From Pseudomonas sp. RC10 (lineage in GTDB: Bacteria > Pseudomonadota > Gammaproteobacteria > Pseudomonadales > Pseudomonadaceae), in the NCBI RefSeq assembly GCF_038397775.1, contig NZ_CP151650.1, forward strand, positions 372,001-436,000: DNA of 64,000 nt, in the 5' to 3' direction. Made by a program: the position numbers and the translations under genes. The notes below the pieces were generated by a model. That model was not told the origin of the DNA and did not search any database. It was given only the letters and a program-made list of their open reading frames with translations. Below are positions 17,804-28,774 of the stretch, one piece after another; the stretch's first letter is position 1, and each line of letters opens with the position of its first letter.

Positions 17804-17830
17804 CTACGTCTGCAAGACTGGACGCAAACC

Positions 17831-17858
17831 TGTGGGAGCCAGCAAGCCGGCTCCCACA
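17831..17858. repeat. REP palindrome, 'GGGAGCCAGCAAGCCGGCTCCC' type
   Basis: A compact 28-bp palindrome (TGTGGGAGCC..GGCTCCCACA) between two convergent genes. The same unit flanks cysA at 27033, where an insertion sequence has split it, and a diverged form is at 58130-58216. It may also act as a weak transcription stop or mRNA stabiliser. Confidence 0.85.
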
Positions 17859-17908
17859 GGGATAAGGCGCGTCGGATGAATGTGCAGTTACACGCCACTC
17901 AACGATGC

Positions 17909-26015: not shown

Positions 26016-27005
26016 ATGTCGATCGAAGTCCGTAACGTCAGCAAGAATTTCAACGCTTTCAAGGCCCTCAACAGCATCAACCTGGACATCCAGAGTGGCG
26101 AGCTGGTGGCTTTGCTGGGTCCGTCCGGCTGTGGCAAAACCACGCTGCTGCGTATCATTGCGGGGCTGGAAACGCCGGATCAGGGCAGTATCGTGTTCCA
26201 CGGCGAAGACGTCTCCGGTCACGATGTGCGTGATCGCAACGTCGGGTTCGTGTTCCAGCACTACGCGCTGTTCCGTCACATGACCGTCTTCGACAACGTT
26301 GCCTTCGGCCTGCGCATGAAGCCGAAAAATCAGCGCCCGAACGAAAGCCAGATCGCCGCCAAGGTCCATGAACTATTGAACATGGTGCAACTGGACTGGC
26401 TGTCGGACCGCTACCCTGAGCAATTGTCCGGTGGTCAGCGTCAGCGTATCGCCCTGGCGCGTGCCTTGGCGGTCGAGCCAAAAGTGCTGCTGCTGGACGA
26501 GCCGTTCGGTGCTCTCGATGCCAAAGTGCGCAAAGAATTGCGCCGCTGGCTGGCGCGCCTGCACGAAGACATCAACCTGACATCGGTGTTCGTGACCCAC
26601 GACCAGGAAGAGGCCATGGAAGTCGCCGACCGCATCGTGGTGATGAACAAGGGCGTGATCGAGCAGATCGGTTCACCGGGGGAGGTGTACGAAAACCCGG
26701 CGAGCGACTTCGTCTATCACTTCCTTGGCGACTCCAACCGTCTGCATCTGGGCGAAGACAACCACGTGCTGTTCCGTCCGCACGAAGTGTCGTTGTCGCG
26801 TCATGAAGTGGAAGGGCACCACGCAGCGGAAGTTCGCGACATTCGGCCACTGGGCGCGACGACACGTGTAACGCTGAAAGTCGAAGGCCAGCCGGACCTG
26901 ATCGAAGCGGAAGTGGTGAAGGATCACGACAGCCTGATAGGCCTGGCGCGCGGCGAGACGTTGTTCTTCAAGCCGAAGGTTTGGCAGAAGGTTGCCGACA
27001 TCTAA
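26016..27005 (+). CDS. cysA: Sulfate/thiosulfate ABC transporter ATP-binding protein CysA
   Basis: 329 residues. Walker [11 protein letters not shown]-loop '[13 protein letters not shown]', signature '[15 protein letters not shown]', Walker B '[12 protein letters not shown]' and H-loop 'VTHDQEEA' are all present. A C-terminal TOBE-like regulatory region follows ('[11 protein letters not shown]'). It powers CysTW. GGAGG in the cysW 3' end serves as its ribosome site. A REP palindrome starts about 27 bp after the stop and is interrupted by an insertion sequence. Confidence 0.95.
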
Positions 27006-27031
27006 TCGGCGGTCCGCTCACTCGCGAAACC

Positions 27032-27054
27032 CTGTGGGAGCCAGCAAGCCGGCT
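27032..27054. repeat. Left part of a REP palindrome split by the IS110 element
   Basis: CTGTGGGAGCCAGCAAGCCGGCT matches the first 23 bp of the intact palindrome at 17830-17859. The missing right arm (CCCACAG) is found at 28227-28233, beyond the insertion sequence. Joining the two outer parts with a single CT restores the palindrome exactly. Confidence 0.9.
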
Positions 27055-27072
27055 TGTATGTTTAGACTTGAT

Positions 27073-27210
27073 GGGGTGGGAGGGACGGAAAGCCGAATCT
27101 GACTCTAGCCAGTACAGACCGTTGGGAGACTTCCAGCCCCACCCTGTCACCTACAAGCGCCGATATGGAATGCATCGGCCTGGACCGACGATAGAAGCAA
27201 GCCAGCGCTT
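27073..27210 (+). ncRNA. Candidate bridge RNA (seekRNA) in the left end of the IS110 element
   Basis: Two stem-bounded modules lie upstream of the transposase. The first is closed by GGGGTGGG (27073-27080) and CCCCACCC (27137-27144). Its interior holds AAGCCG (27090-27095), identical to the left target flank (27046-27051), and TGGGAG (27123-27128), complementary to CTCCCA of the right flank (28225-28230). This is the left-guide/right-guide order known for IS621. The second module is closed by AAGCGC (27155-27160) and GCGCTT (27205-27210). It contains ATAGAA (27191-27196), also found at the right end of the element (28218-28223), as expected of a donor-binding loop. Expression and folding are inferred. 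Confidence 0.62.
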
Positions 27211-27258
27211 ACGGTGAACCCCCAGCAAGCTCTTCAACCCTAACTCGGAGGGTGTGAC

Positions 27259-28221
27259 ATGGCAATCCTTGATGCAGCGGCGATTGTGGGTGTCGATGTG
27301 GCGATGGCGGAACTTGTCACCGCTCAGCGTGGTGTGGATAAAACTCATTGTTTGGTCAATGAGCGAACTTCGATTCACCACTGGCTCAAGACATTGCCTC
27401 AAGGCAGTGCCATCGCCCTCGAGGCGACCAATACCTACCATCTGGACCTAGTGGAAATGGCCCATGACATGGGGCACCTGGTGTTTGTCGTCGATGCGGC
27501 ACGCGTAAGCAAATATCGAGAAAGTCTGGGCAAGCGCGCCAAAACAGATGCGTGCGATGCACATCTGCTGGCTCGCTATCTGGAAAAGGAAGGTGACGAG
27601 CTGCGTCAGTGGAGCCCGCCACCCCAGTTGCACACCCAGCTCAAGCATCTGCTGCATCGCAGGGCCTCGCTGGTCAATAGCCAGACGTCACTGCGCCAAG
27701 GCTGGAAGGATGAAAAAGACCTCAGGAAGGGGTTCGAGAAGTTGATGCGTCGCTTCAGCCATCTGATCAAAGATATCGAGAAACAGCTCAAGCAAGTGCT
27801 GATCAAGTCCGGTGAAATGGATCAGGTCAAACGTTGCCAGGGCATCGAAGGCGTCGGGTTCCTGACCGCCACAGCGCTGTTTGCGGCATTCCTTCGAGGC
27901 GAATTCAAAAACGTAGATGCGTACATCGCCTATCTGGGGCTGGATTTGCGGGTGTCGGATTCCGGGAACAAATCCGGTCGCCGCCGGCTAAGCAAGAAAG
28001 GCGACCCCGAGGTACGCCGGCTAGGCTACAACGCTTCAATGGCCGCCTGCCGATCGGCGACATGGAAACCGTATTACGAGAAGAAAATAGGCGAGGGGAA
28101 AGCCAGAACTGAAGCGTTGACGATATTGAGCAGGAAGCTCGCAGGGGTGGCCTTCTCGCTGATGAAGAAACGGGAAGAGTACGACTCTACGAAACGTTTG
28201 GGGGTTGCCCCCCAAACATAG
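27259..28221 (+). CDS. IS110-family transposase (DEDD recombinase)
   Basis: 320 residues. The N-terminal RuvC-like DEDD domain is recognisable: Asp in 'VGVDVA', Glu in 'ALEATNTYH', and the Asp pair in 'KRAKTDACDAHLLARYL'. The C-terminal transposase_20 region ('CQGIEGVGFLTATALFAA', 'YLGLDLRVSDSGNKSGRRRLSKKGD') carries the conserved Ser that is thought to act in strand exchange. GGAGG lies 7-8 bp before the ATG. No frameshift is seen, so the enzyme is probably functional. It would work with the guide RNA encoded just upstream. Confidence 0.95.
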   Translation: MAILDAAAIVGVDVAMAELVTAQRGVDKTHCLVNERTSIHHWLKTLPQGSAIALEATNTYHLDLVEMAHDMGHLVFVVDAARVSKYRESLGKRAKTDACDAHLLARYLEKEGDELRQWSPPPQLHTQLKHLLHRRASLVNSQTSLRQGWKDEKDLRKGFEKLMRRFSHLIKDIEKQLKQVLIKSGEMDQVKRCQGIEGVGFLTATALFAAFLRGEFKNVDAYIAYLGLDLRVSDSGNKSGRRRLSKKGDPEVRRLGYNASMAACRSATWKPYYEKKIGEGKARTEALTILSRKLAGVAFSLMKKREEYDSTKRLGVAPQT

Positions 28222-28224
28222 AAT

Positions 28225-28233
28225 CTCCCACAG
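28225..28233. repeat. Right remnant of the split REP palindrome
   Basis: CTCCCACAG completes the palindrome begun at 27032. The CT is shared with the left part and marks the recombination core. Confidence 0.85.
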
Positions 28234-28237
28234 ATGC

Positions 28238-28774
28238 TTATGCAGCAGCCTTCTTCAAATTCCGCTTGTGCGTGCGCCCCACTTTCCCCTCGATGCTGTT
28301 CTGCAATTTCTTGCGCATCCCCATCAGAAACGCCGCTTCGGCGGTGACGAACAGCGGGCCGATGATCAGGCCTGTGACGTCGTCGACGAACGCGGGTTTA
28401 CGACCTTCGTAATAATGACCAACGAACTGGATCGCCCAGCCGATCACGAACAGCCCGACGCCCGAGCCTAGCCAGACCAGCGTGCTTTGCTGCGCAAGGT
28501 GCGCGCCGATCCACAGAAACAGCGTCAGCACGACACCGAGGGCGATGCCCAACGGCTTGTCGAGGCGCAGGTAAAACAGCGTGGCGGCGACCGTCGCCAG
28601 CAAGGCGGGCGACAACCACAGTTCGCCCAGCGCCCAACTGCTCCAGCCAGGCCGCGACAGCAGCACCGACACGGCAAGGACGATCAGCGGAACACCGACG
28701 AAATGGGTAGCAATGTTGCGGGTATCGCGGTGGTAAGCCGCATACTGGCTGAGATGATCGATGAGGTTTTTCAT
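28238..28774 (-). CDS. Mpo1-like (DUF962) membrane protein
   Basis: 178 residues with four or five hydrophobic segments. DUF962 hallmarks are 'YAAYHRDTRNIATHFVGVPLIV' near the N-terminus and 'WAIQFVGHYYEGRKPAFVDD' near 115-135, with conserved His residues (HRDTRN..H and GH). Yeast Mpo1 of this family is an Fe(II)-dependent dioxygenase acting on 2-hydroxy fatty acids; bacterial members are largely untested. An ideal AGGAGG lies 7 bp before the ATG. A Lys-rich C-terminal tail follows. It is divergent from the Crp/Fnr-type regulator. The IS110 element sits just 13 bp beyond its stop codon. Confidence 0.82.
   Translation of the reverse strand: MKNLIDHLSQYAAYHRDTRNIATHFVGVPLIVLAVSVLLSRPGWSSWALGELWLSPALLATVAATLFYLRLDKPLGIALGVVLTLFLWIGAHLAQQSTLVWLGSGVGLFVIGWAIQFVGHYYEGRKPAFVDDVTGLIIGPLFVTAEAAFLMGMRKKLQNSIEGKVGRTHKRNLKKAAA

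Follow-up and report, generated by a model that had tools for sequence, protein, structure and literature searches.

We are highly confident that positions 27055-28226 of the window (the whole stretch of 64,000 nucleotides that was analysed) are occupied by a complete, probably recently active insertion sequence of the IS110 group, IS621-like and related to ISPpu10, whose left end encodes a predicted bridge RNA with target- and donor-binding loops. Among relatives of the element, the target guides within this RNA change together with the target. The boundaries of the element, its six copies, this co-change of guide and target, a preference of the copies exceeding the REP background of each genome and changes on both sides of the stems are all found directly. 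By analogy with IS621 biochemistry, RNA would be expressed from the left end and would form a complex with the recombinase, the element would form a circle and strand exchange would occur at donor and target.

The element carries an intact transposase gene in which the DEDD_Tnp_IS110 and Transposase_20 domains both exceed the curated cut-off, and a PDB sequence search (E up to 0.001) returned two matches, ISCro4 and IS621. Residues E55, D97, D100 and SG (235-236) align with IS621/ISCro4 and are presumably the catalytic positions; D13, the first D, lies outside the aligned range. The left end of 204 bp and the right end of 3 bp give a long-left, short-right arrangement, the reverse of that in IS1111, and by its sequence the element belongs to the IS110 family, IS110 group. 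A distant blastn search of the plasmid collection gave no match to the element. The features referred to below are as follows.

17830-17859, + strand: intact REP identical to the rejoined site, an unoccupied target (sequence)
27032-27052, + strand: left half of the interrupted REP, with left target AAGCCGG at 27046-27052 (sequence)
27053-27054, + strand: CT core, left copy (six copies compared)
27053-27060, + strand: right donor CTTGTATG, core plus tip of the left end (present in 139/139 rows)
27055-27258, + strand: non-coding left end (LE), 204 bp, inferred bridge RNA source (sequence)
27070-27080, + strand: target-binding-loop stem, 5' strand (two-sided changes at pairs 7-10, 16 distinct stems)
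27090-27095, + strand: left target guide AAGCCG, 6/7, next base A against G in the target (relatives compared)
27098-27118, + strand: apical hairpin of the target-binding loop, 27098-27101/27115-27118 and 27102-27104/27111-27113 (folding)
27123-27128, + strand: right target guide TGGGAG, complementary to CTCCCA (relatives compared)
27138-27148, + strand: target-binding-loop stem, 3' strand (stem comparison)
27148-27216, + strand: donor-binding stem-loop, C27148 standing also at the foot of the target-loop stem (left-end comparison)
27165-27171, + strand: probable left donor guide ATGGAAT against donor ATAGAAT, 6/7, the seventh a G-T wobble
27197-27201, + strand: probable right donor guide GCAAG against CTTGT, 4/5 plus a G-T wobble
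27226-27229, + strand: CAAG, possible closing pair with CTTG at 27067-27070 (left-end comparison)
27259-28221, + strand: transposase/recombinase gene, 320 aa, intact, PF01548 and PF02371 (Pfam, sequence)
28196-28217, + strand: inverted repeat GTTTGGGGG/CCCCCAAAC at the right end, which overlaps the gene's 3' end (sequence)
28218-28224, + strand: left donor ATAGAAT, including stop codon TAG at 28219-28221 (sequence)
28225-28226, + strand: CT core, right copy (copies compared)
28225-28233, + strand: right half of the REP, right target CTCCCAC(AG) (sequence)
Predicted target sequence for recombination by the element: AAGCCGGCTCCCAC

Comparison of the flanks of six copies placed a CT core at each end, and the flanks rejoin across the element to the REP CTGTGGGAGCC-AGCAAGCC-GGCTCCCACAG, in agreement with the original prediction, which had also correctly placed an intact copy of this REP nearby. 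The insertion lies between genes, 48 bp past the gene for an ABC-transporter ATPase and 12 bp from where a convergent Mpo1-like gene ends, and thus neither gene is broken. A DNA search of the element's own genome found six copies, all full-length matches of 1,193-1,202 bases at 100% (rounded) identity, and no separate left end that would point to an orphan bridge RNA. The site common to 6/6 copies is AGCAAGCCGG, the CT core and CC[C/T]ACA, with 5/6 copies at CTCCCACA and 1/6 at CTCCTACA. The perfect palindrome that had been predicted holds for the window copy, in which the REP forms the longer palindrome GTGGGAGCC...GGCTCCCAC, but not for the other five copies, which lack its left arm and are inserted at ...TTCGCCAGCAAGCCGGCT followed by CTCC[C/T]ACA[A/G]. 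Since the palindrome is particular to the window copy, the shared target is the stretch read by the guides, not the palindrome, whose role the prediction had overstated together with the novelty of the system, IS621 and ISPpu10 being earlier.

The left end is non-coding over its 204 bp, and both guide segments were found where they had been predicted, AAGCCG being identical to the left target and TGGGAG complementary to CTCCCA in the right target. The left target guide (LTG) precedes the right target guide (RTG), the order described for IS110/IS621 elements in the relevant passages of PMC11208160 and PMC11187229. The window guides are imperfect, as the left guide matches 6/7, the core-facing bases are not CT and the right guide has an additional T in front compared with the GTGGGAG of relatives. 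When 27081-27137 was dinucleotide-shuffled 100,000 times, an ordered pair of 6-mers, the first from the 12-base left target plus core and the second from the complement of the 10 bases made up of core and right target, occurred in 221/100,000 shuffles; judged from the sequence, the guide matches in the window appear unlikely by chance alone, and the relatives settle the question.

A stem enclosing the two guides had been predicted and is present, although its register was off by one: the paired segments are 27074-27080 with 27138-27144, not segments beginning at 27073 and 27137, and the stem is extendable to 27070/27148. Among 50 left ends it takes 16 distinct forms, in which pairs 1-10 are kept in 152/160 cells and pairs 7-10 show two-sided changes, G-C to A-T and T-A to G-C, in two or three lineages. 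The basal pair of the donor loop is C-G in 41/50 left ends and T-A in 9/50, never mixed, and the nine T-A pairs may represent one event. An absence of covariation had been named as grounds for abandoning the prediction; both predicted stem-loops are supported by two-sided changes, in the stem of the target loop and in the basal pair of the donor loop, though in few lineages. The target-loop stem was compared by landmarks instead of with RNAalifold, which, run on a MAFFT alignment, preferred the CTTG/CAAG closing pairing and returned a covariation term of only -1.07 because the target-loop stem was misaligned between groups. Folded as a single sequence, the window left end has an ordinary energy (z -1.46) and a best structure in which the guide loops are not open, both guides lying within short hairpins. 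An Rfam scan of 26900-28400 at E up to 1 gave no match.

The positions of the donor-side guides mirror those of the target side. Read against ATAGAAT, the left donor guide is AAAGAAT in 29 of the 50 left ends, AAGGAAT in 18, ATGGAAT in 2 and AGAGAAT in 1; read against CTTGT, 32 left ends have ACAAG as the right donor guide and 18 have GCAAG. Conserved position and pairing make these donor guides probable, the donors themselves being nearly invariant across the clade. The four pairs between CTTG 27067-27070 and CAAG 27226-27229 are kept in 50/50 left ends with one joint change (CCTG/CAGG, in G356), and each of the next two pairs is kept in only 10/16 distinct forms. This pairing would compete with the opening pair of the target-loop stem for G27070, and may switch the transcript between RNA and leader of the mRNA. 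At the predicted circle junction, where a promoter might be rebuilt, TTGCCC-18-TATGTT was recognised by eye and resembles that of many relatives; a promoter scan of the linear region gave 0 sites.

At the right end, the end of the coding region and the recombination site overlap, the transposase TAG lying within the left donor, and directly before this donor a perfect inverted repeat covers the last codons. A hairpin of at least 7 pairs ending at most 4 bases from the donor CAT occurs in 26/47 distinct right ends, with arms that differ in sequence among relatives (GTTTGGGG, GTTGCAGG, GTTGAGGG); other lineages are without the hairpin. The mean hairpin score of the right ends is 13.1 vs 7.7 in mononucleotide shuffles. 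The inverted repeat may be a terminator or a shield against outside transcription.

Relatives at E <= 1e-30 were detected in 57/398 genomes of the genus by a search that scores at most 5 candidates per genome, and the copies are therefore a sample. Stretches were obtained from 46/57 genomes, the other 11 all having best E-values weaker than 1.3e-84, and Pseudomonas sp. NFACC02 contributed four contig ends that carry left ends, giving 47 genomes in total. The table holds 139/143 loci (L007-L009 are without a left end and L014 repeats L006) in 48 genome/guide combinations; as L066 is the same copy as L026, its 139 rows represent 138 distinct copies. The L066 locus (G066:C45:124416-126691), of which the flanks of the first copy were read, contains two such transposase genes head to tail with starts 1,352 bp apart. 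Genome G290 (L124, L126) holds two element variants with guides AGGCTCG and AAGCTCG and proteins 98.7% identical. The elements of G080 (L111-L113) are unlike the others in both guides, AAGCCGCC on the left and GTGAGAG on the right; their left target matches 7/7, and their right end was not found at the expected place.

The left guide in relatives comprises the 7 bases ending 2 bases before TCTGAC, and this one register fits nearly all elements apart from the window element, shifted by +1, and the loops of G301 and of the G383 type, shifted by -1; the permuted sets were given the same freedom of -1 to +1. The panel contains 18 distinct 7-base left guides, and with few single-base exceptions the copies carrying a guide sit at its own sequence, as observed for AAGCCCG (G261, G183, G233, G252), AGGCTCG (G274, G349, G062, G010), AAGCTCG (G039, G160, G341), AATTCG (G018) and AGTTCG (G094). 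Over 29 distinct guide/target combinations the mean match was 5.79/7, compared with 4.76 (sd 0.15) after shuffling of targets, and 6.03 compared with 5.25 when wobble was allowed, values reached by 0/5,000 permutations in each case. In 137 rows (all but L027 and L135, and so including L066), with registers set per element, the left match was 7/7 in 55, had one mismatch in 61 (12 of them wobble-type) and had two or more in 21. The right guide was compared with its target in the 130 rows with a readable right flank (those of NFACC02 and G080 are not readable). Guide GTGGGAG stands at CTCCCAC in 116/120 rows, the other four (three CTCCTAC, one CTCTCAC) all being G-T compatible; GTAGGAG stands at CTCCTAC in 4/4 (G094 and G356, two elements), and the window-type TTGGGAG at CTCCCAC in 5/6 and CTCCTAC in 1/6. 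The prediction that RNA sets the REP preference of this group was open to failure if related copies kept the same segments at other targets; in 138 copies from 47 genomes the guides differ from one relative to another and for the most part track the targets of their own copies, and the idea survived.

Some elements do not fit. Those of G383/G128/G005 have guide AAGCTCG, yet 8/10 copies are at AGGCTCG; in G139/G004, with guide AAGCCCG, 4/5 are at AAGCCCC; and G364 has 0/3 in its best class. Without wobble, 0/5 copies of G205, G290 (AGG type) and G267 are in the best class, and wobble explains all five. Low matches to the guide are seen in G091, which has a truncated left end (3/7), and in G186 (2/7), where the left flank repeats the right. 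In this last case (L135, G186:C10) CTCCCACATTTGGTAG is present on both sides, a pattern unseen in the other rows viewed, which suggests a rearranged or off-target insertion.

If it was mainly REP abundance that brought the copies and the guides drifted to the host's majority REP without steering, guides matching the majority class would be seen, as is the case in many genomes. We therefore counted four classes of unoccupied REP in 42 genomes and compared the copies with random draws from their own genome. Usable rows numbered 106/139, the 33 others being dropped for a target outside the four classes (22), an uncounted genome (10) or duplication (1). The class best matching the guide held 80/106 copies, against 57.4 expected (sd 3.6), a value reached in none of 200,000 simulations, and the mean match exceeded the background, 6.33 vs 6.00 (0/20,000 reached), and with wobble 6.51 vs 6.37 (2/20,000). 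Even where the best-matching class was a minority, 19/44 copies were in it against 6.7 expected. Examples are 3/4 copies of G125 in a class of 106/1,075 sites, 2/2 of G254 in one of 45/1,345 and 2/4 of G367 in one of at most 13/423. Drift under REP abundance is consequently a highly improbable account, and we consider equally improbable that target choice resides in the protein, guide and target merely sharing descent with it. The latter is in keeping with the closest proteins bearing different guides (98.7-99% identical), whose guides differ by one wobble-tolerant G/A and have the same target; the elements sampled contained no natural case of nearly identical proteins with exchanged guides. 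Against it, 22 disjoint related pairs with different targets, formed greedily by protein identity rather than from a tree among 45 elements (NFACC02, G186 and G005 left out), gave 15 wins, 2 losses and 5 ties for the own pairing of guide and target (p 0.0012), or 14:1 with 7 ties when wobble was allowed. The same guide and REP class also recur on different left-end backbones (AAGCCCG in G052/G261, AAGCTCG in G341/G039).

Slightly less improbable, though still very unlikely, is that the recombinase reads the REP hairpin as a DNA structure and that the guide match is secondary or incidental. By eye, in most rows viewed the REP hairpin has the left target as its 3' arm, and REP palindromy was raised as a possible transposase cue in 2006 (passage in PMC1525189). 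The four classes compared are variants of one REP hairpin, yet the copies prefer the class that fits the guide, and L101 (6/7) and L110 (7/7) match their guides in flanks that by eye are without a REP hairpin arm.

RNA-guided selection of REP targets is known from IS621: Durrant et al. 2024 (PMC11208160) report that 144/173 of its insertion sites fall in REPs and that guides covary with targets over 5,511 pairs, a covariation data set that may already contain some of the present elements. The E. coli IS621 resembles the window element in its IS110 group, DEDD plus serine domains, left-end RNA, LTG before RTG and a REP target with CT inside, and its guide ATCGGGC against the usual target ATCAGGC is a wobble of the G/A type seen in relatives here (PMC11208160, sections cited). 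It differs in its REP and gives only a 92-bit phmmer match, and unlike IS621 the window element has relatives whose left guides make up a series directed at a single insertion point. ISPpu10 of P. putida shares with the window element the IS110 family, REP insertion and a two-base repeat (PMC1525189, in part), and its bridge RNA was predicted in 2024, being listed in the legend of Extended Data Fig. 10 (PMC11208160). The comparison with ISPpu10 was made through P0025, the homologue of that name among the 120 listed of 435 homologues, rather than through the KT2440 element; P0025 is 55% identical and thus a different IS. ISPpu9 and ISPpu10 were each found in REPs in 7/7 cases (Tobes and Pareja 2006, PMC1525189, in part). 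ISPpu9 of P. putida, of the IS110/IS492 family, likewise has seven copies in REPs and a structured leader before tnp, and is described with two regulatory sRNAs (PMC8450116). ISEc21, in the part of PMC11187229 concerned, has a seekRNA from the upstream non-coding region with the IS110-type strand-match order, and a transposase of 358 aa compared with 320 aa. Among the papers listed in searches of the open literature, no title or start of an abstract described a guide series across Pseudomonas REP classes. RNA-set REP targeting (IS621) and the ISPpu10 bridge RNA prediction are known; the window element adds a member to this known kind and, with its relatives, offers a clean series of natural guides.

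The preferred reading, RNA-guided choice of the REP, extends to a broader picture that we hold with even confidence for and against. A Pseudomonas IS110 clade would be specialised on one REP position, with point changes re-programming its left guide time and again to follow differences in REP arms among hosts, and with its right guide and donor side almost fixed. The host REPs, tens to >1,000 sites per genome, would form a renewable supply of intergenic landing sites and steer how the guides evolve, and G-T wobble would serve as a stepping stone from one REP class to another. For one clade and one insertion point, the results give independent support that RNA, not only protein, chooses the target. 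They also provide a natural panel of 18 guides with known targets, and many alternative sites in most of the 42 genomes counted, with which the mismatch and wobble tolerance of bridge recombinases could be measured without synthetic libraries.
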